From the NCBI GenBank assembly GCA_944371995.1, contig CALVYD010000009.1:1-55346 (forward strand): a stretch of 55,346 nt of DNA. Direction: 5' to 3'. The notes under the pieces are model-generated. The model saw only the letters and a list, made by a program, of their open reading frames with translations, had not been told where the DNA came from and did no database searches. This document shows positions 5,084 through 53,196 of this stretch, one piece after another. This DNA is from an uncultured Bacilli bacterium (lineage in GTDB: Bacteria > Bacillota_I > Bacilli_A > RF39 > UBA660). The position numbers and the translations under genes were made by a program. Each line of letters starts with the position of its first letter. The stretch's first letter is position 1.

Positions 5084-5972
5084 GGATGCCACCTACTTTC
5101 GCAATGAAGATTTCGTTTAATGTTGGTTCTGTTACATCATATTTTGTTATATCTTTATCCTTTATTTTGGCAAATACTTTTTTAGCTACACTATCTTCTG
5201 CTATTTTTACCATGTATTCGTCTTTTTCTTTGGTAACAGAAAGTACTCCTTTTATTTTTTCTATTTCTGCAACCGGCAAGTCTTCTCCTCGAATCATAAT
5301 GTTTTTCTTTTTATATTCCTTTTTAATATCTTTTACATATCCGTCGACTACTGGTTTTCCTTTTACTAAAATAATTAATTTTTCACAGAAGTTTTCGATA
5401 TGTTCCATTTGATGAGAAGAAAAAATAATGGAACAGCCTTCTTTTTGTAATTTATAAATGGCTTTTTTCATTAATTCTACATTAATAGGATCTAGCCCGG
5501 TAAATGGCTCATCTAATATTAATAACTTGGGATGATGAAGTACTGCAGAGATGAACTGAATCTTTTGTTGATTACCTTTGGATAGTTCTTTAATTTTTCT
5601 ATTTTCATAGGACTCTATTTGAAATTCTTTTAGCCAGTACTTCATTTCTTGCTCTATCTTTTTTTCTCTCATACCTTTTAATACACCATAAAAAATCAAT
5701 TGTTCTTTTACGGTCATTTTAGTAAGAAGACTTCTTTCTTCTGTTACAAAACCAATCTTATTGGTAATAGAATAATCAATATGTTTTCCATCTAATAGAA
5801 CTTCCCCTTTCGTTGCTTCTAGTAGGCCCATGATTATTCTAAAAGTAGTTGTTTTTCCAGCACCATTTTCTCCTAATAGACCAAATATTTCCCCATCTTT
5901 TACTTCAAAAGATAGATTATCTACAGCTTTATAATCTCCATAATACTTTACTATATTTTTTACTTGTAGCAT
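5076..5972 (-). CDS. ABC transporter ATP-binding protein (NatA/YhaQ-like)
   Basis: The 298-residue protein carries Walker A GENGAGKTTTF near residue 33, the signature segment LSKGNQQKIQFISA, Walker B LLILDEPFTGLDP and the switch histidine in SSHQMEH. The C-terminal 80 residues form the DUF4162-like tail common in this ATPase family. It partners the ABC-2 permease encoded by the overlapping downstream gene. A 200-base AT-rich gap upstream (5973-6160) has no gene and should hold the promoter. Confidence 0.93.
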   Translation of the reverse strand: MLQVKNIVKYYGDYKAVDNLSFEVKDGEIFGLLGENGAGKTTTFRIIMGLLEATKGEVLLDGKHIDYSITNKIGFVTEERSLLTKMTVKEQLIFYGVLKGMREKKIEQEMKYWLKEFQIESYENRKIKELSKGNQQKIQFISAVLHHPKLLILDEPFTGLDPINVELMKKAIYKLQKEGCSIIFSSHQMEHIENFCEKLIILVKGKPVVDGYVKDIKKEYKKKNIMIRGEDLPVAEIEKIKGVLSVTKEKDEYMVKIAEDSVAKKVFAKIKDKDITKYDVTEPTLNEIFIAKVGGIHD

Positions 5973-6161
5973 ATTCTACTCCTCTCTATTTATATTGTAG
6001 CATTTTTCTTCGGAGTTTCCTATCTTTTATCTATTATTTATAATATAGTATTTTTACAAAAAAGGCTTTACTATATGATTTGATATCAGTAAACAAAGTA
6101 AATAGAGCTATCCTGATTAGCTATTCCTTATTTTGTTATTCAAAAATACTTATATAGTGCC

Positions 6162-6192
6162 AAAAAAAGGATTGATTGGCAATCCTTTTTTT
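6162..6192 (-). terminator. Rho-independent terminator after the aminopeptidase/small-protein genes
   Basis: GGATTG pairs with CAATCC across a 5-base loop and both arms are extended by A7/T7 runs. It begins at the stop codon of the 85-aa gene. Confidence 0.85.
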
Positions 6193-6193
6193 G

Positions 6194-6451
6194 TTACTTC
6201 TTTTTTACTAAACCTTTAGCTTCCGCTTCTTTATATGGCATGGTTTCAAACCAAAGTTTTTCTATTCCTTCACCAGAGTCGTTTTTTGCTTCTATATAAT
6301 AAATTCCTGGTTCCTCTTCTGTTTCTCCAGCTTTATATCTTATTAATTTTATTTGTGGATTTTCTTCTTGAGATATTATCTTTAATAAATCGTCGCCACC
6401 AATATATCGGCCTCTTTGATTAATAAAATCTATCATTTCCCATGTGTACAT
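6194..6451 (-). CDS. Small hypothetical protein
   Basis: I do not recognise this 85-residue acidic protein (MYTWEMIDFINQRGRYIGGDD...). It has no membrane segment or cysteine. The length, good codon structure and the terminator directly after it suggest a real gene. It follows the M18 aminopeptidase gene after a 27-base gap and is probably read with it, with no visible functional hint beyond that. Confidence 0.6.
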   Translation of the reverse strand: MYTWEMIDFINQRGRYIGGDDLLKIISQEENPQIKLIRYKAGETEEEPGIYYIEAKNDSGEGIEKLWFETMPYKEAEAKGLVKKK

Positions 6452-6478
6452 CTTCCGTATCCCCTTGTGCCTACTCTT

Positions 6479-7879
6479 TTAGGCTTTTTTTAAGAATGCA
6501 ATATATCCGCGATATGCTTCATAGATATCAGCTTTGCTAGTTACTTCCCAGGGAGCATGCATGCTTAATACTCCTACTCCACAGTCAATTACTTCTACAT
6601 TATAATTTGCTAGAATATAAGCAATGGTTCCGCCTCCACCGATATCTACCTTACCAAGTTCTGATATTTGAAAAGAAACATTAGCATCGTCCATAATCTT
6701 TCTAAGTTCTGCAATATATTCTGCATTTGCATCATTACTGCCACTTTTACCACGAGAACCAGTAAATTTACAGAATACTACTCCAAGACCAAACTCTGAT
6801 GAGTTTTTCTTATCCATTACCGATTTATACAATGGATCATAAGCAGCATTTACATCACTTGATAACATCTTTGAGTGATTTAGAACTCTTCTTACAGCTA
6901 CTGGACTATTCTCATTCATCAATACACAAATCTCAGCTATGGCATTATCAAAGAAATGAGACTCCATTCCTGTTGCTCCTACACTACCGATTTCTTCTTT
7001 GTCTACTAGAATACAACTTAATGTTTTTTCTGTAGTTTCCACTTCTAAAAATGCTTCTAGAGAAGTATAGGCACATACTCTATCATCTTGACCATAAGAC
7101 ATAATCATGCTTCTATCAAGTCCAAAGTCTCTAGCAGCTCCTGCTGGTACTGCCTCTATTTCTGCTGACAAGAAATCTTCTTCTTCAATATCATATTTTT
7201 CTTTTAATAAAGCTAAAATATTACTTTTAACTTCTTCTTTTGCTTCTTTTTCTTCCTGTATTTCCATTGGCTTGTTACCAATTAAAATATCTAAGTCTTC
7301 TCCCTCAATTAGTTTGGATGATTCTTTTTTCATTTGTTCTCCGGCTAAATGTGGAAGTAAATCTGTAATTCCTACTACTGGATCATCTTTATCTTCACCT
7401 ATAGAAATTTCAACTTTTTCTCCATTCTTTTTAACAATTACTCCATGTAGTGCAAGAGGTAGAGTGACCCAGTGATATTTTTTAATTCCACCATAATAGT
7501 GAGTATCAAAATAGACAAAACCATCACTTTCATAGATAGGATTTGCTTTTAGGTCAATTCTTGGAGAATCAATATGTGCTCCTAATATATTCATTCCCTC
7601 AGTAATTGGTCTAGTTCCTATGTGAAATAAAGCGACTGCTTTTCCTTTATTATTTACATAAATTTTATCTCCTGGACGTATTTCTACATTATTTTTGATA
7701 TAATCATCTAAGTTTTTATATCCTTTTTCCTCGGCTCTTCTAATAATTTCTTTCGTTGCTTCTCTTTCTGTTTTTGATACTGTTAAAAATTTTTTATAAT
7801 CTTCACAAATATTATTTAATTTTTCTAAGTCTTCTTTATTATATTTTTTCCAAGCACTCTGTTTCTTCACTTTTATCAT
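6479..7879 (-). CDS. M18 family aminopeptidase
   Basis: The 466-residue product is a cytosolic dinuclear zinc aminopeptidase of family M18 (aspartyl aminopeptidase/ApeA type). Visible metal and catalytic segments are GAHIDSPRIDLK (His and Asp ligand region), VDKEEIGS (general-base Glu and Glu ligand), the later segment SSDVNAAYDPLY, and SMHAPWEV near the end. The dodecamer-forming GGGGTIA segment is also present. It should remove N-terminal residues from peptides during protein turnover. A clear AGGAGG-type RBS precedes the start. Length is normal for the family. Confidence 0.95.
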   Translation of the reverse strand: MIKVKKQSAWKKYNKEDLEKLNNICEDYKKFLTVSKTEREATKEIIRRAEEKGYKNLDDYIKNNVEIRPGDKIYVNNKGKAVALFHIGTRPITEGMNILGAHIDSPRIDLKANPIYESDGFVYFDTHYYGGIKKYHWVTLPLALHGVIVKKNGEKVEISIGEDKDDPVVGITDLLPHLAGEQMKKESSKLIEGEDLDILIGNKPMEIQEEKEAKEEVKSNILALLKEKYDIEEEDFLSAEIEAVPAGAARDFGLDRSMIMSYGQDDRVCAYTSLEAFLEVETTEKTLSCILVDKEEIGSVGATGMESHFFDNAIAEICVLMNENSPVAVRRVLNHSKMLSSDVNAAYDPLYKSVMDKKNSSEFGLGVVFCKFTGSRGKSGSNDANAEYIAELRKIMDDANVSFQISELGKVDIGGGGTIAYILANYNVEVIDCGVGVLSMHAPWEVTSKADIYEAYRGYIAFLKKA

Positions 7880-8010
7880 CCTCCTGGTAATAGTATATCA
7901 TTTTTTTCTAAATTCATAAATAAAAAGTCAATTTATGACAAATTTTCTAATTTTATATTTGTTCTTTCGAGCAGTAATTGTATAATGATTAAAAGAAGGT
8001 AGTGAGTTTT

Positions 8011-41605: not shown

Positions 41606-42275
41606 TTATTCTAGAAGTAGTCTTACTGTGCCTCCTTCTTCTAATTTTTCACCTGCTTCTGGAGACTGGGCTACTATTTTTTTTCCGTTACCAGAATATT
41701 TAATTGTAAAATTTGTCAATTCCTTCTTAGCATCTTCTACTGTTTTTCCTACGACATCTGGTACTTTATGTGTTGGAATATCTGTCCATTCTAGGTCTTT
41801 TTCCATTTCTTTCTCTTGTTTTTCTATTCCTAGGGCATCAATAATATCTAATAGAATACGTCTGGCGATTGGTGTTGTTGTATAACTAGAAAGAAGAGCC
41901 GTGTTTTTAGGATTATCGATTGCAAGATAAAGGACTGCTTCCGGGTCATTTGATGGAACTACTGCCATAAAGGACATGATATAGTTTCCTACTAGGTATC
42001 TTCCGTCTTGAACTTTCTGAGCTGTTCCTGTTTTCCCGCCTATTCGATATCCTTCGATATAAGCACTTTTTCCTCCACCTTTAGCAACGACACTTTCTAG
42101 GGCATGTCTCATGATTCTTGATGTTTTTTCACTGATTACTTGTCTTATTTTTTTCTTTTTGGTTTGTTCTATAATACTATTTGTTTCTTTTTCAGAAATA
42201 CTTTTTACGATATATGGTTCATAGAGTGTTCCGCCATTTACTACTGCTGATACTGCTGTTACTTGTTGTAACGTC
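41606..42275 (-). pseudogene. 3' fragment of a class B penicillin-binding protein (SpoVD/FtsI type)
   Basis: The frame from about 42275 reads LQQVTAVSAVVNGGTLYEPY and continues in frame past MRHALESVV to the stop at 41606. It contains the transpeptidase KTG box (GYRIGGKTGTAQ), SFMAVVPSNDPEAVLYLAID, and a single C-terminal PASTA domain (HKVPDVVGKTVEDAKKEL). One PASTA domain is typical of SpoVD and some FtsI/PBP2B. The SxxK and SxN motifs and the whole N-terminus are absent because element 2 is inserted upstream; the 5' part is not in the window. In this state the gene cannot make a functional transpeptidase. Confidence 0.93.
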
Positions 42276-43898
42276 GTCTATTAAATGAAACTTTCTACCC
42301 AAGTTATCAGAGAATATATTTATGCTTTCTCCTGTTTTTATATAAATATCTAGTTTTATCTTTTTATTCTCTTCTTTATAAACATAGATTCTATCAATTA
42401 ATTCATTAAATACATCACTGAAACACTCATCATCAGTTAAACAATTATCTAACATTTCTTTTAGTTCATTAATTTTATTTTCTATATAGTTTTTATCTTG
42501 CTTGTTATTTTGTAATTCATTTAATTTTGCTTGATATGTAGTTATTTCTTCATTAATTAAATCTATCTGTTTTTTATAATCTTCTTTAGATAAGTATTCT
42601 TCCATAACAAGTTCTAGTAGCTTATTTTTTTTATTATTAAACATTAAAATTTTGGATTTGATATTTTTTATTTCAGATTCATTATTATTTGTTTCTAAAT
42701 AATTCTTACACTCATTTAATATATCATCAAAAATATGCTTTCTTCGTTTCAATAATTTTTTAAACATATCTTTAAAAACTATATCTAATTCATACTCAAA
42801 TACTCTAGGATTAGAGCAACCCTTTAAACTTTCTTTCCGGTATACTTGGCATTCCCATACTGGATTATTTTTTCGTTTACCAGCCGATGATCTATGATAA
42901 GTTAAGTTGTGATGCCCACAATAAATTTTACCGGAATAAGTATATCTATTTTGAAATACTTTTTTATTTACGGCTCTGTTTGTAAAACTATCTTGCCTTT
43001 CCTTTAATTTTTTGTTAGCTCTATCCCATAGTTCTTCTGATACAATCGGTGGGACATTTTCAAAATCTTTATAAATAATCCAATCTGATTCATTTAATTT
43101 TTTCTTCTTTTTTGTACGGTAATCTAACACTTTCGTTTTATGACCACAATAATATCCTTTATATTTAGGATTTTCAATAATTCTAGTTAGTATTGTTGTA
43201 TCTATTCTTTTACCTTTTTTATTTTTGTAACCTAATTCATATAAATACTTTGATACTTTAGATAAACCATCTGTAGTATTGGCATATCTATCAAATATAA
43301 TTTTAATCATTTCTGCCTCTTTTTCATCAATCACTAATTTTCCTTTATCTTTTACATAACCATAGATATTAGAGCATCCTAGCACAGTACCACTATCAAT
43401 ACTTCTTTTCATGCCAAAAGATACTCTTTCTGATAGTTTTCTAACTTCATCTTGGGCAATCGATGACATGATAGTTAGTCTAAGTTCAGAGTCAGGTAAT
43501 ATGGTATTAATATTATCATTTAAAAAATAGACACCAACACCATCTTGCAATAACTCCTGTGTATATTTGATACTATCCAAAGTACTTCTTGAAAACCTGG
43601 ATATTTCTTTCGTTAATATTAAATCAAACTTATGCTTTTTAGCATCTTCGATCATTCTTAAAAATTCTTCACGTTTTTTCACCTGTGTTCCACTGATTCC
43701 TTCATCAATATATGAACCTATAAAATGCCAGTTAGGAACTTTACTTATATAATCATTAAAGAAAGATATTTGGGCAGATAGAGAGTGTAATTGTTCATCT
43801 TTATCAGTTGATACTCTTGCATAAAAACATACTTTTAATTTTAATTCTTGCAGTGGAATTCCTTTCATAATATTATTTCTAACTGTATATAAGTCCAT
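42219..43898 (-). CDS. Large serine recombinase of element 2
   Basis: The 559-residue protein has the resolvase domain with catalytic serine in FYARVSTDKDEQ (Ser30), SRFSRSTLDSIKYTQ, a recombinase domain (about 180-310), a zinc-binding region with variant ligands (KIYCGHHNLTYH...WECQVYRKESLKGC), and a coiled coil (about 395-480). It is not closely similar to the element 1 enzyme. The last ~19 codons (from about DVTTSNSSISSSKWRNTL) come from the host PBP gene read in another frame, so the natural C-terminus before integration differed. An internal ATG (residue 11) is an alternative start. It should catalyse integration and excision of element 2. Confidence 0.93.
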   Translation of the reverse strand: MDLYTVRNNIMKGIPLQELKLKVCFYARVSTDKDEQLHSLSAQISFFNDYISKVPNWHFIGSYIDEGISGTQVKKREEFLRMIEDAKKHKFDLILTKEISRFSRSTLDSIKYTQELLQDGVGVYFLNDNINTILPDSELRLTIMSSIAQDEVRKLSERVSFGMKRSIDSGTVLGCSNIYGYVKDKGKLVIDEKEAEMIKIIFDRYANTTDGLSKVSKYLYELGYKNKKGKRIDTTILTRIIENPKYKGYYCGHKTKVLDYRTKKKKKLNESDWIIYKDFENVPPIVSEELWDRANKKLKERQDSFTNRAVNKKVFQNRYTYSGKIYCGHHNLTYHRSSAGKRKNNPVWECQVYRKESLKGCSNPRVFEYELDIVFKDMFKKLLKRRKHIFDDILNECKNYLETNNNESEIKNIKSKILMFNNKKNKLLELVMEEYLSKEDYKKQIDLINEEITTYQAKLNELQNNKQDKNYIENKINELKEMLDNCLTDDECFSDVFNELIDRIYVYKEENKKIKLDIYIKTGESINIFSDNLGRKFHLIDDVTTSNSSISSSKWRNTL

Positions 43899-45335: not shown

Positions 45336-45361
45336 AAAAAAAGCAACTATTTAAAGTTGCT
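45336..45361 (-). terminator. Rho-independent terminator at the end of hsdS
   Basis: AGCAACT and AGTTGCT form a 7-bp stem with a 6-base loop and seven T on the minus strand. The upstream arm includes the last codons and the stop of hsdS, so it ends the hsdR-M-S operon. Confidence 0.85.
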
Positions 45362-46679
45362 CAATAAGTTTAAAACATTCTTCAATTTTTTCTACTATTT
45401 TCTTTTGTTGTTCTAGAGGAGGAATTGGAATTAAATAATCTCCTAATTTTTTTAGTGAAATAAATGGAAAAGTTGTAGAATTTCCATCAATTAGCATTTT
45501 TTTTCTTAAAGTTTGTACATAATAATATATATATTTTACAACAATTTGTTTATTCATTCTTTCATTCAATATTAATGCATTCCACTGCTGATTTGTTGTC
45601 AGCTCTATATTAGTTAATGCATAATTTCCGATAGTTGCACTAGTACAACATAACAAAACTGTATTTTTTGGTATTAGTCTATTTACATTTTTGCCAAGTG
45701 CCTTTTTAGTAATAAATTGATTTGTTTTATTTATAATATGTCCTTGTGATTTTATATCATCAACTGTAAACCAGGGAATATCGTTGCTATTCCAAAAATC
45801 ATCATTTGTTCTTAAGGGGGTAAAACCATTTACAATATTAAAAACATCTTTAAACATACTCCACTTCCAATTATTGGGAATATCAAAAGGAACATCTTTT
45901 TTTATTTCTTCAACATCGATTGTTGGTAATGTTAAATCATTTTCTACTAGGTTTCCATGAATAGCACTATCTAATATCTTTTCTTTTAATAATGTTTTTA
46001 ATTTTTCTTTTTCTTTATCATTTTTTTCTTTTTTATCAATAAGTTCAAATAATTCTTCTATTTTATTTGCAATTTTATATTGTTCTTCAAGAGGTGGTAC
46101 CGGAAACAAAGTATCTAACAATTTTTTCTTACTAACAAATTTCATGGCAGAGCCGCTTGTCATGTTTTTAAAAATATCAGTATAATATTCTAAGCACCAT
46201 TTTAAAAATACTACATCAGAATATTTTTCGTTATATTTTATATCAAAAATGTTCCAATGAAATAACATCTTGTAATTTTCTCTATAAATCAAAGGATAAC
46301 CAATTGTTCCAATATTACAATAAAATATATCATTATATTTAGGTTGATACTTATCTTTATAATAATCGTAGTCTTCATAACTCATTAATTTAGTATTATT
46401 AATATTAATAATACCAGAAGTCATATCACCAACTTGAATTATTGGAACACCATCCTCTTCAACAAATTCAACCTTATCACCTGCAGTATTTATACCTTGA
46501 TAACAATCTTTTACTAAATCACCAAAGCGTATCCACTTCCAATTATTCGGTATTTCAAATGGGATATCATCATTTATTGATCGAACATCTATTGGTTTTA
46601 ATGATGGATCATTTTCTACAAGTTTTCCATGAATTGCTTCATCTAATATTTTCTTCTTTAATAACTCATTACTTATCAT
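45351..46679 (-). CDS. hsdS: Type I restriction-modification specificity subunit
   Basis: The 442-residue HsdS has two target-recognition domains, each preceded by a duplicated conserved helix: KKKILDEAIHGKLVENDPSL near the start and KEKILDSAIHGNLVENDLTL in the middle, each followed by PF(E/D)IPNNWKW. The spacer helices end LEEQYKIANKIEELFELI and LEQQKKIVEKIEECFKLI. It determines the bipartite DNA site recognised by the HsdM2S methylase and the HsdR nuclease. It overlaps hsdM by 4 bases. The high similarity of the two repeat halves makes it prone to recombination. Confidence 0.94.
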   Translation of the reverse strand: MISNELLKKKILDEAIHGKLVENDPSLKPIDVRSINDDIPFEIPNNWKWIRFGDLVKDCYQGINTAGDKVEFVEEDGVPIIQVGDMTSGIININNTKLMSYEDYDYYKDKYQPKYNDIFYCNIGTIGYPLIYRENYKMLFHWNIFDIKYNEKYSDVVFLKWCLEYYTDIFKNMTSGSAMKFVSKKKLLDTLFPVPPLEEQYKIANKIEELFELIDKKEKNDKEKEKLKTLLKEKILDSAIHGNLVENDLTLPTIDVEEIKKDVPFDIPNNWKWSMFKDVFNIVNGFTPLRTNDDFWNSNDIPWFTVDDIKSQGHIINKTNQFITKKALGKNVNRLIPKNTVLLCCTSATIGNYALTNIELTTNQQWNALILNERMNKQIVVKYIYYYVQTLRKKMLIDGNSTTFPFISLKKLGDYLIPIPPLEQQKKIVEKIEECFKLIEQL

Positions 46680-48097
46680 TTTAATAGTCCTTCTAACTTA
46701 GAAAGTATTTTTTCATTATCTTTTGTAATAGTTTTCATTCTATCGATGATTCCTTCAATAGTATAGGTTTCAGTTTCGTCTATTTTATTTGGATTTTTAA
46801 TATCTAAATTATAATTTTTTATATCTTCTACTTTAACTAACCAGGCTTGTTCATTTTCTACACGATTATTCCACCACTGTCTTACTTTATCAAAATGATG
46901 TCTTTTAATTGGATTTGTTTTAGTAAATCTTGCTAATCCTTCTGGTAATTCTAATTCATAATACCATATTTCTTTAGTTCCTTTAGAATCTTTATTAAAG
47001 AATAGAAGATTTGTTGTTATTGATGTATAAGGAGCAAATACTCCTTCTGGAAGTCTTACTATTGTGTGTAGATTAAATTCTTTTAATAGTCTTGATTTAA
47101 TATTATTCTTAACACCATCACCAAACAAAATACTATCAGGTAATACTATTCCTGCTCTTCCATTATCAGATAATTTTTCCATAAGTAATGCCATAAATAA
47201 ATCAGCAGTTTCTTTTGTTTGATATTCTTTTGCAAAATTAGATGATACTCCATCTTCTTCTATTCCACCATAAGGAGGATTAGTTACAATAACATCTACT
47301 TGATTTTTATCACTAAAACCTGATACTTCGCCAGTAAGTGAATTTCTATGTTCTATATTTGGAATATCTACTCCATGTAATAATAAATTAGTCATACATA
47401 AAGCATAAGGTAGTTGTTTTTTTTCAATTCCTTGAATATTTTTTTCAATACTTTCAACATCATCAGCAGTATTTATTTGTCCAGTTTTTTCATAATGTTC
47501 AATGGTACAAGTTAAAAATCCTCCGGTTCCACAAGCAAAGTCAAGTACTCTTTCATTTACTTTTGGATCAACCATTTCAACTACAAATTCTGTAACTGGT
47601 CTTGGTGTATAAAATTCACCAGCTGATCCTGCACTTTGCAATTCAGATAACATACTTTCATAAATGTCATTAAATTCATGCCTTTCAGTATTTATATTGA
47701 AATCTGTTTTATTTATTTCATTTATAACTTGTCTTAATAATGTCCCATTTTTCATGTAATTGTGGGTATCTGCGAATACATCATGAACTATTTTATCTCT
47801 AACATTATTAACTGGTAGTTGTTTTAAGTCTTTAAACATCTGCTCTACAAAATCAATTAGTTCATCACCGGTCATTCCTCTTTCATCTAATGCCCAGTTT
47901 TTCCATCTATATTTTTCTGGTATTGCACTTTCATATGGTTTATTTTGCAAGCCAGCTTTTATCTCCCATTCATCTTCTTTAGAATCAAACAATTTCATGA
48001 ATATCATCCAAATGGTTTGCTCTAGTCTTTGAGCATCACCATTTACGCCATCATCTTTTCTCATTGTTTGTCTAATATTTTTCATATTAATTGCCAT
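46676..48097 (-). CDS. hsdM: Type I restriction-modification DNA methylase
   Basis: The 473-residue adenine-N6 methylase has an N-terminal helical domain, SAM-binding motif I VLDFACGTGGFL, and catalytic motif IV VIVTNPPYGGIEE. AGEFYTPRPVTEFVVEMV is the usual HsdM segment before motif I. It methylates the host at sites set by HsdS, protecting against HsdR. It lies 2 bases after hsdR and overlaps hsdS by 4, forming one operon. All key motifs are intact. Confidence 0.96.
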   Translation of the reverse strand: MAINMKNIRQTMRKDDGVNGDAQRLEQTIWMIFMKLFDSKEDEWEIKAGLQNKPYESAIPEKYRWKNWALDERGMTGDELIDFVEQMFKDLKQLPVNNVRDKIVHDVFADTHNYMKNGTLLRQVINEINKTDFNINTERHEFNDIYESMLSELQSAGSAGEFYTPRPVTEFVVEMVDPKVNERVLDFACGTGGFLTCTIEHYEKTGQINTADDVESIEKNIQGIEKKQLPYALCMTNLLLHGVDIPNIEHRNSLTGEVSGFSDKNQVDVIVTNPPYGGIEEDGVSSNFAKEYQTKETADLFMALLMEKLSDNGRAGIVLPDSILFGDGVKNNIKSRLLKEFNLHTIVRLPEGVFAPYTSITTNLLFFNKDSKGTKEIWYYELELPEGLARFTKTNPIKRHHFDKVRQWWNNRVENEQAWLVKVEDIKNYNLDIKNPNKIDETETYTIEGIIDRMKTITKDNEKILSKLEGLLK

Positions 48098-48099
48098 TA

Positions 48100-50427
48100 T
48101 TAAGCCTCCAAACTATATAAACTATCTTTCATATCTTCTAATGCTTTTTGGAAGTTTTGTAATCCCATAAATATTACCATAATAATTTGATATACTGTTC
48201 CAAATGATTCTAGTTCTGGAATATTTAAAATATTAGGATTTTCTAATTCTTCTATTCCACCATCTACATATTTATCAAGAATAATTGATAATACTTCTCT
48301 AGCTTTTTCTCCATATTTTTCAAAATAATCACTTTGTTTAACATGTCTTGCTCTTTGACTTCTAGTAAGAGCTTTTTTACCATAAGCAACATGAACTAAC
48401 AAATCAAATGGATCATATTCTTCCCCAACTTCTTCTTCTAAAATATTAAGATAAATATCTTTTTCTTCCAAAGCTTTTATAATCTTATCTTTCATATCTT
48501 CTTTATTCCAATATTCTTTAAATATTGAATAAGTTGCATATTCTTCTGTAATTTTATTTTTTACAAACTGAGTAAAGTTTTCTGTAATTAATTCTCCGTG
48601 TTCATTAATTAATTTTTGTTGCCTATATAATTCTCTAACTTGTTCATTAGGTAAAACTATTTTAGGTTTAACTTTTCTTTTTTCAGCAGGCATTACATCT
48701 TTAGGTTCTACTGGTATTTTTTTGTTTTCTGTACTATATGGATTACTATCATTATCTGTTGTTAATATAACAGGAGTTATTTCTACTTCACCATCAAATG
48801 CAGGATCTTTAAATAATTCCGTAGCACCAGTAAAATCAATAATTGTAAAGGCATATTTATCAAATTCTTCTGATATACGTGTTCCACGACCTATTATTTG
48901 TTTAAACTCAACCATACTATTAATGTTAGTATCAATAACTATTACTTTACATGTTTTAGCATCTACTCCAGTTGTAAGAAGTTTAGAAGTAGTTACAATT
49001 GTTGGATATTTTTTTCTTGGGTTAATAAAGTTATCAAGTTGCATTTTACCTATCACATCTGAGCCAGTAATTCTCATGATATATCTATCATCATGTTCTA
49101 CCATATCAAGGTTTTGATTAATTAATTCTCTTCTCATTCTATCAGCATGTTCTTCATCAACACAGAAGAAAATTGTTTTATCAATTCTTCTATTTGTATC
49201 TTTTAAATAGTCAGTTACTATTTTTGCTACTAATTTATCTCTATTTGGTAAAACTAATTTTTTATTAATATCAGCTCCACCATAAACTCCTTCTTCTACT
49301 TCTTCTCCATCAGTATTATGAGTTCCTTTTTTTACAATAATATCTTCTATATCTTTATCAAGTCCTATTCTTAATACTCTATAAGGAGCTAAGAATCCAT
49401 CTTCTATTCCTTGTTTTAAAGAATAAGTATAAACTGGCTCTCCAAAATATTCATAATTATGTATTGTCTTTTCATTTTTTGGTGTTGCTGTTAAACCTAT
49501 TTGAGTAGCTGTTCCAAAGTAAGATAGTATTTCTCTCCATGATGAATCCTCAGCAGCACTACCTCTATGACACTCATCGATAACAATTAAGTCGAAGAAA
49601 TCTTGAGGAAATTTTTTATATAAATCTTCTCTTCCTTCTGATCCTTTTAATTGTTGATATAATCCTAAATATATTTCATATGATGGATCATATTTACCTT
49701 TTATTTTTGTCATTGCTCCTTTAAACGGTGCAAAATCATTAACCATTGTTTGGTCAATTAATATATTTCTATCAGCAAGATATAAAATTCTTTTTTTAAG
49801 TTTAGATTTCCATAACCTATAAATTATTTGGAAAGCAGTAAAAGTTTTTCCAGTTCCAGTTGCCATAACAAGTAACACTCTATTTTGTCCTTTAGCAACT
49901 GCTTTAAGAGTTCTTTCAATAGCAATTTGTTGATAATATCTAGGCGGATATTTTGAAGGATATAATGGTTCTTTTATAATTTTTTCTTGTTCTTCATTAA
50001 TATTTGAGCAAGCCATATATTCTTTCCATAATTCTTCTGGTGTAGGAAAATTATCCAATCCTAGTTCTGTTTCCTTTCCAGTCAACATATTTTTTTGAAT
50101 AAAACCATCACCATTTGAAGAAAAAGCAAATGGAACATCTAACATTTTTGCATAATCAATTGATTGTTGCATACCAAAACCAATTGCATGATTATTATCT
50201 TTTGCTTCAATAACAGCAATATAACTTGAATTATAAGTTAGAAGATAATCCGTTCTCTTTCTAACACCTCTTGAGTATTTACCTTTACCTTCATCAATTA
50301 CACGACCATCTGTAAAAGATTTTTCTTCATGGATATTATTATAACTCCACCCTGCTTTAACAAGTGCAGGTGTAATATATCTTGTTCTGATTTCTGTTTC
50401 ACTTAAACTTTTCTTATCCTCAAACAT
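48100..50427 (-). CDS. hsdR: Type I restriction enzyme, nuclease/translocase subunit
   Basis: The product (775 residues) has an N-terminal PD-(D/E)xK nuclease region with RTDYLLTYNSSYIAVIEAKD, then an SF2 helicase: Walker A VLLVMATGTGKTFTAFQ, DECH box VIDECHRGS, LTATP, and a second RecA domain with IGRGTRISE. It translocates DNA and cuts unmethylated targets with HsdM and HsdS. I place the start at the ATG at 50427, 11 bases after AAGG; a TTG at 50436 is also open. It is the first gene of the operon. Confidence 0.95.
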   Translation of the reverse strand: MFEDKKSLSETEIRTRYITPALVKAGWSYNNIHEEKSFTDGRVIDEGKGKYSRGVRKRTDYLLTYNSSYIAVIEAKDNNHAIGFGMQQSIDYAKMLDVPFAFSSNGDGFIQKNMLTGKETELGLDNFPTPEELWKEYMACSNINEEQEKIIKEPLYPSKYPPRYYQQIAIERTLKAVAKGQNRVLLVMATGTGKTFTAFQIIYRLWKSKLKKRILYLADRNILIDQTMVNDFAPFKGAMTKIKGKYDPSYEIYLGLYQQLKGSEGREDLYKKFPQDFFDLIVIDECHRGSAAEDSSWREILSYFGTATQIGLTATPKNEKTIHNYEYFGEPVYTYSLKQGIEDGFLAPYRVLRIGLDKDIEDIIVKKGTHNTDGEEVEEGVYGGADINKKLVLPNRDKLVAKIVTDYLKDTNRRIDKTIFFCVDEEHADRMRRELINQNLDMVEHDDRYIMRITGSDVIGKMQLDNFINPRKKYPTIVTTSKLLTTGVDAKTCKVIVIDTNINSMVEFKQIIGRGTRISEEFDKYAFTIIDFTGATELFKDPAFDGEVEITPVILTTDNDSNPYSTENKKIPVEPKDVMPAEKRKVKPKIVLPNEQVRELYRQQKLINEHGELITENFTQFVKNKITEEYATYSIFKEYWNKEDMKDKIIKALEEKDIYLNILEEEVGEEYDPFDLLVHVAYGKKALTRSQRARHVKQSDYFEKYGEKAREVLSIILDKYVDGGIEELENPNILNIPELESFGTVYQIIMVIFMGLQNFQKALEDMKDSLYSLEA

Positions 50428-50496
50428 AAATAACAAATCCTTCCAAACAAACTTACTAACATATATAATTATTTTACCATAAATTACTAATTTTTG

Positions 50497-50741
50497 TTAG
50501 AGTTTGGTGATTTTTGAAATGATAAAATCAATATTAATCATGTTATTAACTTTTTTCACCTTGTTTTTTATTTCTTGATATTTGGCTTTTAATTGTGGAT
50601 CAACTTTACCATTTCTATATTTTAATTGAGATATATAAGCATTTTTATAGCTTTATAATAATCATCTTTTGATATTTCTTTTGATTTATCTTCTTCTTCA
50701 AATTTAATAAATCCTTCTTTTTCTATATCACTTATTAGCAT
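50497..50741 (-). pseudogene. Frameshifted small gene after the 173-aa gene
   Basis: The frame starts with ATG at 50741, five bases after the previous stop, and reads ISDIEKEGFIKFEEEDKSKE then DDYYKAIK, but then shifts: one frame ends LIYLN at 50622, while the neighbouring frame continues AYISQLKYRNGKVDPQLKAK and KKVNNMINIDFIISKI to a stop at 50497. A single-base change near 50645-50655 explains it. The intact product would be about 80 residues and helical. It is third in the operon with the methylase fusion. A sequencing error is possible. Confidence 0.65.
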
Positions 50742-50745
50742 TAAA

Positions 50746-51267
50746 TTACCCCTCTACTAATCCTTTATATAACTTTGTATTTAACAAAGCATTTTTTAAT
50801 GATGTCTTATTTAAATTTAAACCATTACTATCACATGCTCTTAAAACATTTGGAAATTCAGAAGCATTATTTTCTAAATAAGAAATTATACTATTACTTC
50901 CATCTATACCACTTCCCATATGAGGTGTTGCTCCAAATATCACATCTGAATATCTATTACTAAATCTTAAATTATCAAAAGGATAATTAGTTGCCTCATC
51001 ATAGGAAACATAAACTAATCTATCAGGCTCAATACCAAGATTTTTACAAATTCCATTTATATCTTTTATCTTAATATTTAACTGACCAACAATTAATATC
51101 TGTGCATTCTTAATATCACAATATGAATAACTCTCTTCTTCTCTTTTTAAGAAAATATTATGCTTAGTTAGGAAGTTTTCCAACTCTTCTTTGCTTGTTC
51201 TATTTGCTAATGTTAATTCTTCTCTAAATTTGTCAATTATTTCTTCTAATTCAGTATAATTTAACAT
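50746..51267 (-). CDS. Rossmann-like partner protein of the methylase fusion
   Basis: The 173-residue protein has a helical N-terminus (LEEIIDKFREELTLANRTSK) and a compact alpha/beta domain beginning NAQILIVGQLNIKIKDINGI, then RLVYVSYDEATNYPFDNLRF, YSDVIFGATPHMG and ending KTSLKNALLNTKLYKGL. The pattern resembles DUF2325-like or similar nucleotide-binding folds, but I cannot name a family. It follows the methylase fusion by 14 bases and precedes the frameshifted gene, so the three form a conserved-looking module that I suspect is defence related. Confidence 0.55.
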   Translation of the reverse strand: MLNYTELEEIIDKFREELTLANRTSKEELENFLTKHNIFLKREEESYSYCDIKNAQILIVGQLNIKIKDINGICKNLGIEPDRLVYVSYDEATNYPFDNLRFSNRYSDVIFGATPHMGSGIDGSNSIISYLENNASEFPNVLRACDSNGLNLNKTSLKNALLNTKLYKGLVEG

Positions 51268-51281
51268 ACACTTCCCTCCTA

Positions 51282-53021
51282 TTAAAATTCCTCGTTTGCA
51301 ATATCTATAAGACTTTCTTCCAGCTTTTTTAATTTATCTTTAACTATTTTTATTTCATCTGTTTTTGCTAAATATCTATTTACTACATTCGTTTGTTCTT
51401 CAATAGGCGGTACTGGAATATTTATTGTTTTAAACTGGCTTAAATTAATAGCAGGTAATACTCCACCACTTTTAATTGAGTTAATTACAATTGTTCCTTT
51501 ATGACTTTCAAAAAACATTTTTAAATAATATGGATTTATTATATTTTTATCTAATCTTAATACTGTAAAATTACCACTAGGAACTAATTTTTCGTCTTTC
51601 TTTAATTCTACTACTGCAAATTTTGATAATGTTCCCTTTGATGTAACTAATAAATCTTTATCATGTAAAACATATTTATTAAGTTTATCAGTATCAAAAT
51701 AAATTTTAGTTAAATTAGAATCAATAACTCCATCATTAACATTTGTGATATTAACGATTTGATATTCTTCACTACCATCAAAATTGAATGAATATTGATT
51801 AATCTCATTTGAAGAAATTTGGTAACCTCTATAAATTTCCTTGCACACATCATTTAATTTTTTAGGATTTTTAACTTCAATATTTTCTATTTCCATATAG
51901 CTTTGAACATATAAACTGTAATTGTTATTTGCCACTTTATCATTACTAACAATTTTTGAATTTTTGGTATTGTTTAAAGAATTATATTCATTCATAATTT
52001 CTTCAACATTTAATTCACTAATATGACTATGAGAAATTTGATTAGACAGCATTTTTTCTGCATTAATAAATTTGATACTTTCATTATTCTTACTTAATAT
52101 AAGTAAAGTTATTGGAATACCTGTATTGGCAAATAATCTTTCTGGTAATGAAATTACAGCTTCAACATACCCATTTTCTACAAGTAATTTTCTATATTCT
52201 TGATCTGGTAGTTTAAATAAGCCTCCATTTGTCATAACAATTACTGCTCTGCCGTCTTTTGATAAAGAATTAATTACTGAATTAACAAAAGACCAACATG
52301 AAGAGATTCTACTATTGAATTCATATTTTATTTTACTATTAAGATTATTAATTAAATTATAATCGGATTCATTTAATTTTAATCCAAAAGGAAAATTACA
52401 AAAAACCTTATCAAATTTCTTTTTGAAATTTTGTTTAAACACATTATCATTAATTAAATTATTATTTACTCTTAAAGCATTCATTTTTTCTTGGGCAATA
52501 ATATTACTTCTAGCATTAATTTCTATACCAGTAAAATTATAATTTTTCTTCTTTCTAGCATAGTAAGTCAAGAAATTACCTGTAAACGAGCATATATCAA
52601 GTATTTCCTTGCTATCATTTCTTTCTAATATTTGATAAGCTAAATCATTTATTGAATTAGGAGTTGAAATATTATATCTTGAATATATACTATAATCTTC
52701 ACAAATAATATCTATAATCTTTTTTTCTGATAAATTATTTAAATAGTTAAAAATGTTATATAAATTTGATTCAGCCATGCATGGTCTAATGCTACTATAA
52801 ATGTTCCATAAAAAATCATTGCTGTCTTTTTCTCCTTGTAATAGATAAGATTCAATACTACTTATGTTTTCCAAATCTAATTTAGATTTTTCTAAATACT
52901 TTTTGTTCCAAAATAAATATGTAATGCTTGTTATAGCTTCTTGAATATCATTGATTGCAATGTATCCTTTAATATTGTTTTTAAATAAATTAATTACTTC
53001 TTGTCTTTCTTTATCTGACAT
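51282..53021 (-). CDS. N6-adenine methylase fused to a specificity domain
   Basis: The product (579 residues) has a helical N-terminus, a methylase core (about 120-350) and one HsdS-type target-recognition domain (about 385-579, ending NLSQFKTINIPVPPIEEQ and a coiled coil), as in M-S fusion enzymes of type I/IIG-like systems. The SAM motif is ILDICSFTGNFL rather than DxxxGSG, and motif IV is NFPF rather than NPPY/F, so the catalytic site is diverged. The ATG at 53021 has AGAAGG 8 bases upstream. It is the first gene of a three-gene unit with its own promoter and has no linked nuclease of its own. It could be a sensor or an active methylase. Confidence 0.82.
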   Translation of the reverse strand: MSDKERQEVINLFKNNIKGYIAINDIQEAITSITYLFWNKKYLEKSKLDLENISSIESYLLQGEKDSNDFLWNIYSSIRPCMAESNLYNIFNYLNNLSEKKIIDIICEDYSIYSRYNISTPNSINDLAYQILERNDSKEILDICSFTGNFLTYYARKKKNYNFTGIEINARSNIIAQEKMNALRVNNNLINDNVFKQNFKKKFDKVFCNFPFGLKLNESDYNLINNLNSKIKYEFNSRISSCWSFVNSVINSLSKDGRAVIVMTNGGLFKLPDQEYRKLLVENGYVEAVISLPERLFANTGIPITLLILSKNNESIKFINAEKMLSNQISHSHISELNVEEIMNEYNSLNNTKNSKIVSNDKVANNNYSLYVQSYMEIENIEVKNPKKLNDVCKEIYRGYQISSNEINQYSFNFDGSEEYQIVNITNVNDGVIDSNLTKIYFDTDKLNKYVLHDKDLLVTSKGTLSKFAVVELKKDEKLVPSGNFTVLRLDKNIINPYYLKMFFESHKGTIVINSIKSGGVLPAINLSQFKTINIPVPPIEEQTNVVNRYLAKTDEIKIVKDKLKKLEESLIDIANEEF

Positions 53022-53046
53022 AATATTACCTTCTTTCTTTATTTGG

Positions 53047-53104
53047 GGTGGTTCCACCTCTTGGTTGATGAGTATAATATATCACGGTTTTGGGGTGCTG
53101 TCAA
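53047..53104 (-). promoter_or_regulatory. Promoter of the methylase-fusion unit with repeated operator-like motifs
   Basis: On the minus strand TTGACA (53104-53099) and TATATT (53081-53076) are 17 bases apart. TTTGGGGTG occurs twice on the plus strand, at 53042-53050 and within the promoter spacer at 53089-53097. The dyad GGTGG-TT-CCACC lies at 53047-53058, in the transcribed leader. The repeats suggest autoregulation, common for methylase operons. Confidence 0.6.
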
Positions 53105-53196
53105 CCCATTTTTATTTTTTTTAAAACAAGATTTACTTTTTCATTTGAACATTAAACATAACAGTTTCATTTTAAAACACTTTGATAAATAAAATT

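Follow-up and report, generated by a model that had tools for sequence, protein, structure and literature searches.

We analysed a 55,346-nucleotide stretch of DNA from an uncultured Bacilli bacterium (lineage Bacillota_I; Bacilli_A; RF39; UBA660; assembly GCA_944371995.1, contig CALVYD010000009.1, positions 1 to 55,346), hereafter the window, and focused on two minus-strand genes at the head of a type I restriction-modification (RM) gene set. Gene MS (51282..53021) encodes a predicted N6-adenine pseudo-methyltransferase joined to a single type I specificity half, which consists of a target recognition domain (TRD) and a C-terminal helix; gene PART (50746..51267) encodes a partner of 173 amino acids (aa). 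We propose, at a probability of roughly two in three, that MS would bind operators without being catalytic and so act as an autorepressor of the type I operon, aided by PART as its sensor or co-factor. Computed support came from degeneration of the methylase motifs, a conserved gene order, the swapping of modules between loci, paired palindromes, and covariation between palindrome half-sites and the TRD.

According to this proposal, MS would descend from a type I methylase with a single specificity half, its catalysis now dead. An MS dimer would bind, via the TRD, two palindromic operators flanking its own promoter, and this binding would repress or autoregulate the operon, including the downstream type I genes hsdM, hsdS and hsdR. 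We infer the DNA binding, the dimerisation, repression rather than activation and the reach to hsdMSR, and likewise the roles of PART and of S-adenosylmethionine (SAM). PART, which is co-inherited with MS and translated right after it, would probably be a sensor or co-factor that sets MS activity, and SAM or S-adenosylhomocysteine (SAH) may be an effector, because the cofactor-binding residues survive whereas the catalytic ones do not.

The MS protein and the loss of its catalytic motif

The MS reading frame runs on the minus strand from an ATG at 53021 to a stop at 51282 and encodes 579 aa. Pfam assigned residues 120–382 to N6_Mtase (3.5e-35) and residues 386–568 to Methylase_S (7e-10), the latter in agreement with a first-pass annotation of this DNA that had placed a specificity domain in the fusion. 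In alignments of the AlphaFold model (predicted local distance difference test score, pLDDT, 84) against the Protein Data Bank (PDB), residues 1–377 matched the HsdM structure 3lkd (Z 34) and residues 376–579 matched the half-S protein Esub1 (8vsq/8vsr; Z ~22). At the level of fold, MS is an M~S fusion, with the HsdM fold and a Methylase_S TRD in one chain. The model also contained a single long C-terminal helix (residues 540–578), as would be expected of a dimerising half-S, and MS probably dimerises through it. Two such one-TRD subunits in a dimer would together recognise a palindrome, the shape of the operators described below. Neither MS nor PART had an above-cut-off Pfam match to a helix-turn-helix (HTH) domain.

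Two methylase motifs were degenerate in the window copy. Motif I read DICSFTGNF (residues 142–150; 52572..52598, minus strand), with Phe in place of the first Gly of the HsdM counterpart DPxCGTGGF, and catalytic motif IV read NFPF (residues 209–212; 52386..52397, minus strand) in place of NPPF/Y. The first-pass annotation had called both motifs correctly, FTGNF within motif I and NFPF as motif IV. Its altered GxG was indeed present in the window but is not a trait of the family: the first Gly was kept by 26 of 30 MS proteins, and Phe at 146 occurred in the window copy only.

Motif IV behaved differently. In a joint alignment NPP[FY] was kept by none of the 30 MS proteins versus all 25 readable companion HsdM proteins. 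Position 209 was Asn in 11/30 and otherwise Y, H, D, F, E, V, Q and more; about half of the proteins had neither Asn nor Asp there, and some had Leu, Val or Ala replacing the aromatic residue. The SAM site was mostly retained, with Asp142 in 27/30, Gly146 in 26/30, and the acidic residue that contacts the SAM ribose (E/D at 167) in 29/30. Because none of the 30 keeps NPP[FY] while the SAM-binding residues mostly survive, we concluded from the alignment that MS is probably a family of pseudo-methyltransferases, with catalysis lost and the cofactor site retained. The sequence NFPF recurred in a Salimicrobium homologue, but other relatives carried HFPF, YPPL, EFPL, QYPL, VPPF and other variants; standard active methylases with NFPF, the counter-case that the first-pass annotation had named, were not seen among the homologues.

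In a tree of the methylase domain, 26 MS proteins (all those linked to PART, plus L032 and L034) formed a supported group (97/98), and the copies from Lactococcus and L. amylovorus joined just outside it. A single origin of all 30 was not rejected (approximately unbiased test, p 0.40), nor was it demonstrated.

Gene order in relatives

The MS-PART loci were gathered with PART as the sole query, and their link to type I genes therefore does not stem from the choice of query. In 197 related genomes PART had four further homologues, three of them with MS directly before PART. Wider sampling, which included a scan of 84,980 species genomes with an alignment of PART, placed PART loci in Inordinaticella, Ruminococcus, Phocicoccus, Erysipelatoclostridium, Dolosicoccus, Veillonella, Lachnospiraceae, Oscillospiraceae, Acholeplasmataceae and one Tenericutes chromosome; one Phocicoccus contig carried two different MS-PART copies. 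Neighbouring genes were classified with locally built profiles. At every locus where both HsdM and HsdR could be scored (22/22), MS-PART stood at a type I hsdM/S/R system, which is where a check for homologous gene pairs near defence genes, suggested in the first-pass annotation, had led. The order MS-PART-hsdM-hsdS-hsdR on one strand held in nearly all loci; the exceptions were L045, with convergent hsd genes, and the window and L061, in which hsdR came first. We concluded that the pairing of MS and PART exceeds chance, having the same gene order in many genera, and that it is conserved in Bacillota.

MS without a recognised PART also preceded hsdM-hsdS-hsdR on plasmids of Lactococcus, Salimicrobium and Lactobacillus. 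MS is probably annotated plainly as ‘N-6 DNA methylase’, as it was in the plasmid records that we encountered. The Salimicrobium plasmid (L031) had a DUF2325 gene before MS and a 151-aa protein between MS and hsdM (features 5238–5561 and 7539–7994), with AGTAAT..ATTACT palindromes on both sides of the DUF2325 gene’s promoter. This arrangement raised the idea that PART is itself a DUF2325 protein, which gained no support: PART had no Pfam match to PF10087, and hhalign gave a probability of 8.7% with a thin profile of five sequences. DUF2325 genes on two other plasmids did not adjoin any MS.

Additional genes were observed within some of the type I loci. In L063 a 590-aa gene with a P-loop-like motif (5667–7439) lay between hsdS and hsdR of an MS-PART locus, and in L065 (12824–13246) and L066 (5457–5879) the same interval held a conserved, apparently membrane-spanning protein of 140 aa. 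On an IMG/VR phage contig (L034), an MS gene with paired palindromes (211–2038) adjoined a phage terminase small-subunit gene; the phage may use the same regulator or a decoy.

Paired palindromes at the MS promoter

Upstream of MS in the window we found two putative operator sites on the minus strand, site 1 TGGGTTGACAGCACCCCA (53091..53108) and site 2 AGAGGTGGAACCACCCCA (53044..53061). A predicted sigma-A promoter, TTGACA-N17-TATATT with a TG before the −10 box (53076..53104, minus strand), lay between both sites and overlapped them, site 1 covering part of the −35 box. Site 2 contained the perfect palindrome GGTGGAACCACC (53047–53058), which occurs once in the 1.72-Mb assembly, and GGTGGNNCCACC likewise had a single match there, at site 2. 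The window pair scored p 0.007, the floor of 150 shuffles.

Most loci likewise had two imperfect palindromes of 14–18 bp upstream of MS, for example TTTGGTATaaaaATACCAAA and TTTGGTATgtaaATACCAAA in L036 and TTGGCTCATTCGAGCCAA and TTGGCTCAAGCTAGCCAA in L043, and L047 had additional copies in the same upstream region. The candidate operators of the examined loci were mostly GG(T/A)TA..TA(T/A)CC or CGTTT..AAAC palindromes, and in nearly all loci they straddled a TTGACA-N16-18-TATAAT-like promoter. A duplicated-palindrome score exceeded that of dinucleotide shuffles (combined p 5e-16; GC-weighted 4e-20) and that of 216 other upstream regions from the same loci (p 5e-12; a score of at least 27 in 64% vs 0.9%). 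The GC-weighted score also exceeded that of 259 control promoters, 1.5% of which scored as high (p 1e-9). GC-weighted automatic detection recovered a pair in nearly all of 22 loci, 20 of them individually at p < 0.05. Spacings between the two sites varied, and no rule of helical phasing emerged.

The sites were also confined to one place. Within each locus, equally good sites occurred at the MS promoter only and not again before hsdM or hsdR. In whole-genome searches, ACGTTTN4AAACTT matched only the operator pair in genome G207 and the pair plus one further position in G268 (the pair being 2 of 3), and the exact matches of TTGGTATN4ATACCAA in G124 were the operator pair only. Like an RM control protein, MS thus precedes the RM genes and has repeated putative operator sites that overlap its promoter.

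We compared half-site similarity with protein identity across loci. Half-site similarity correlated with MS TRD identity (r 0.355, p 0.004), also after removal of the methylase-domain distance (0.29, p 0.013), and did not correlate with PART identity (0.11, p 0.18). This covariation is suggestive of operator reading by the TRD. The cognate HsdS does not appear to target the candidate operator: the same operators are found in L065 and L066, whose HsdS proteins are only 29% identical, and the HsdS proteins of L049 and L065 are unrelated.

Exchange of the MS-PART cassette between type I systems

Comparison of loci revealed swaps in both directions. L049 and L065 were 98% identical in MS and 98% in PART, whereas their HsdM, HsdS and HsdR were 24%, 16% and 19% identical; conversely, L040 and L046 were 94% identical in HsdM and 96% in HsdR, with MS at 22% and PART at 28%. 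DNA similarity between L049 and L065 extended from at least 175 bp upstream of MS to 126 bp past PART and then ended, and that between L040 and L046 began 12 bp before hsdM. The breakpoints therefore lay between PART and hsdM, and the promoter upstream of MS moved with MS.

Distance correlations told the same story. MS and PART distances were correlated (r 0.55, p 0.002, Mantel test), as were those of HsdM and HsdR (0.73), and the correlation of MS with HsdM was not significant (r 0.14, p 0.07). With a partner that is conserved and co-inherited, and with NPP[FY] lost throughout the family, the first-pass view that MS is not a redundant methylase was borne out. Mean identity was 31% for the MS TRD, compared with 28% for its own methylase domain and 19% for the hypervariable HsdS. 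In L065 and L066 the HsdM (97%) and the MS TRD (96%) were nearly identical and the HsdS was not (29%). These identities make it unlikely that MS serves the companion enzyme as a specificity subunit, and the cassette seems to function independently of any particular HsdM or HsdR. The module swap fits control exerted via DNA better than a subunit role, and it speaks against a fit between MS and any one HsdM or HsdR.

PART and the type I genes of the window

PART starts 14 bp after the MS stop on the same strand and occurs once in the window’s assembly. Its AlphaFold model (pLDDT 85) comprised a helical N-terminal part and a Rossmann-like domain, and its conserved residues include GxxPH(S/K/M) and S126. 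The family had no match in Pfam, NCBIfam, PADLOC, PHROGs or PDB sequences, and tblastn gave no match in phages or plasmids. Fold searches returned generic Rossmann-like matches only (best Foldseek E 3e-3, TM at most 0.38; VIA Z at most 6.5; none in BFVD), and for this reason we claim no function from the fold. Some proteins of ~560 aa with weak matches to the PART profile (E ~5e-4) resembled formate-tetrahydrofolate ligase in sequence and were discarded.

Larger proteins encoded next to UvrD-like helicases (L068, L069) also end in a PART domain, which was found in other settings as well (L020, L052); given this occurrence, PART may be a general sensing module. In L068 (9482–11727) and L069 (5729–9728) it forms the C-terminus of proteins of ~340–360 aa that are encoded, in two different families, next to a short UvrD-like helicase. 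These genes are a possible uncharacterised system of two or three genes.

Between PART and hsdR lies a decayed frame of ~80 aa (50497..50741, minus strand), which starts at 50741, is interrupted within an A-run and resumes in a different frame as far as ~50498. The first-pass annotation had counted this frameshifted gene with the pair; the gene and its frameshift were present, but relatives had no such gene in their PART-hsd gaps, and it is not a conserved third component. Behind it stands a complete EcoAI-type hsdR-M-S set (45351–50436) on the same strand as MS-PART: hsdR (48100..50436; EcoAI/FtnUII family restriction subunit, NCBIfam 1033 bits for the EcoAI family), hsdM (46676..48097; intact motifs DFACGTGGF and NPPY) and hsdS (45351..46679; two TRDs). 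The earlier remark that the fusion has no nuclease of its own was therefore misleading, as the MS-PART pair heads this gene set.

A penicillin-binding-protein gene in the window (41606–42310) was found to be cut, with the C-terminal half of the transpeptidase and PASTA left; it ends where a large serine recombinase gene (42219–43898) begins. An element inserted in this gene probably carries the hsd/MS island as its cargo. On contig C69 (12431–16603) the same genome has a second type I locus for methylase and specificity (N6_Mtase 375 bits, two TRDs).

Discussion

Several observations weigh against the proposed autorepressor role of MS. The correlation between TRD and operator is modest; when 2-bp shifts were allowed it fell to r 0.31 (p 0.011, partial p 0.058), and an initial run, in which the start used for L036 was wrong and the pair of L044 was mis-detected, gave p 0.18. 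Start codons of some relatives were re-set after inspection of the sequence. The 19 PART-to-hsd gaps searched, several of them 11–95 bp long, showed no terminator, but longer gaps contain possible extra promoters (a strong one in L043), which could free the hsd genes from the MS promoter at some loci, and the window itself has the decayed 300-bp stretch between PART and hsdR. The phage contig L034 has MS and operators with no PART or hsd genes nearby. Lastly, the first Pro of motif IV is replaceable in KsgA/Erm enzymes, and the window’s NFPF copy could be competent; the family-wide loss alone does not settle the status of that copy.

The latter point leads to the view that MS is an active adenine methylase whose motif IV is relaxed (NxP[F/L]) and whose target is its own promoter or a half-site palindrome. 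The SAM-site residues are retained, and a minority with NFPF/NYPF-type motifs (the window, L031, L034 and the L037/L041 group) keeps the Asn, the second Pro and the aromatic residue. We nevertheless regard this activity as very unlikely, for about half of the 30 proteins lack Asn or Asp at 209, some lack the aromatic residue, all companion HsdMs keep NPP[FY], and the same paired palindromes stand before members with and without Asn209. The first-pass annotation had favoured a stand-alone DNA sensor or a separate defence module, and the behaviour of MS-PART as an exchangeable cassette, together with the PART domains beside UvrD-like helicases, would suit a self-sufficient anti-phage module, made up of a DNA sensor and an effector, that simply accompanies type I systems. 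Yet every readable locus lies at a type I system, mostly with the same position and strand, and Pfam, PADLOC and fold searches of PART gave no signature of a nuclease, NADase or other effector. The paired palindromes, restricted to the MS promoter and with half-sites that track the MS TRD, point instead to a transcriptional controller of the restriction system, and we consider the anti-phage module unlikely.

Alternatively, a non-catalytic M with a half-S could dock into the type I complex, replacing HsdM/HsdS or recruiting HsdR to extra targets and so shifting the cutting. MS is homologous to HsdM plus half of HsdS and is encoded beside both, but near-identical MS-PART pairs precede HsdM and HsdR of ~20% identity, near-identical HsdM and HsdR follow unrelated MS-PART pairs, MS and HsdM distances are not significantly correlated (unlike those of HsdM and HsdR), and docking leaves the paired operators unexplained; such docking is improbable. 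PART or an unrelated host repressor might instead be the reader of the operators, leaving MS with another task. Many repressors use Rossmann-like sensor domains, and PART could join a repressor in this way. This division of labour is highly doubtful, given that half-site similarity follows the MS TRD and not PART, that the half-site varies among clades, unlike the site of a host-wide regulator, and that L032 and L034, MS loci in which PART was not seen, still have paired palindromes (p 0.007). The Lactococcus L029 and Salimicrobium L031 loci, where no PART was seen, likewise have pairs that are visible by eye but were not flagged in the automated test.

The proposed controller, MS with PART, has relatives in both enzymology and regulation. 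In fold, M~S domain order, single TRD and C-terminal helix, MS resembles the gamma-class N6-adenine methyltransferases of type I HsdM/half-S (Type 1 1/2) systems, and the best solved matches were HsdM 3lkd and the M subunit of EcoR124I. It differs from them in that all 30 members lack NPP[FY], that its TRD is conserved and not tied to HsdS, and that a full hsdMSR set with its own M and S lies behind it. In the passages found in a review of type I enzymes and their relatives (PMC3874165), M~S fusions are treated only as enzymes. Esub1 is the closest solved relative of the TRD half (25% identity) but is a stand-alone half-S lacking the pseudo-methylase. Partial-domain hidden Markov model matches to the MAD2 methylase and MAD5 specificity components recall MADS, but the scores fall far below the curated cut-offs (MAD2 29 vs 720 bits, MAD5 48 vs 400) and no other MAD component was recognised. 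We also rejected the Staphylococcus hsdRSMS variant (PMC10030836) as the identity of the locus, which differs from it; the variant has two S genes.

Among regulators, the C proteins of type II systems and HsdC of Mollicutes (PMC5282649) resemble MS in that their genes precede the restriction genes, that repeated operator elements lie at their own promoters and that, for hsd, autoregulation of the operon is predicted; these are small HTH proteins, whereas MS is a pseudo-methylase-TRD protein of 540–620 aa with a partner. RptR of Gammaproteobacteria (PMC12255303) is similarly a first gene with multiple palindromic promoter sites and a strong association with type I RM systems, but it is a small four-helix protein that reads TAGCTA, and MS and PART differ from it in sequence, host range and operators. 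M.EcoRII, M.Ecl18kI and M.SsoII (PMC3874152, PMC12707154) are type II methylases that use an added HTH to repress the promoter of their own gene, as is proposed for MS; they are active enzymes, whereas MS is predicted to be inactive and its own TRD is the proposed reader of the operator. The literature searched, which covered few subscription journals, contained no description of pseudo-methylase regulators of type I systems, and an earlier account is possible.

Judged from sequence comparison, MS-PART is a real, conserved and unexpected pair, and MS probably an RM control protein of new build. We would go further only tentatively, at somewhat less than even odds: having no catalysis, MS may be a ligand-responsive transcription factor in which the SAM pocket and PART sense and the TRD reads the operator, an exchangeable cassette that restrains unrelated Bacillota type I systems until foreign DNA arrives. 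Transcriptional control of type I systems is largely open, and the dedicated controllers known so far, from Mollicutes and Gammaproteobacteria, are small proteins of HTH or helical type. If our proposal is true, a controller made from the restriction system’s own methylase and specificity parts would be widespread in Bacillota, and each locus would have a directly testable operator. It would also explain the seemingly redundant, degenerate methylases beside type I loci, and would caution against calling them modification enzymes.

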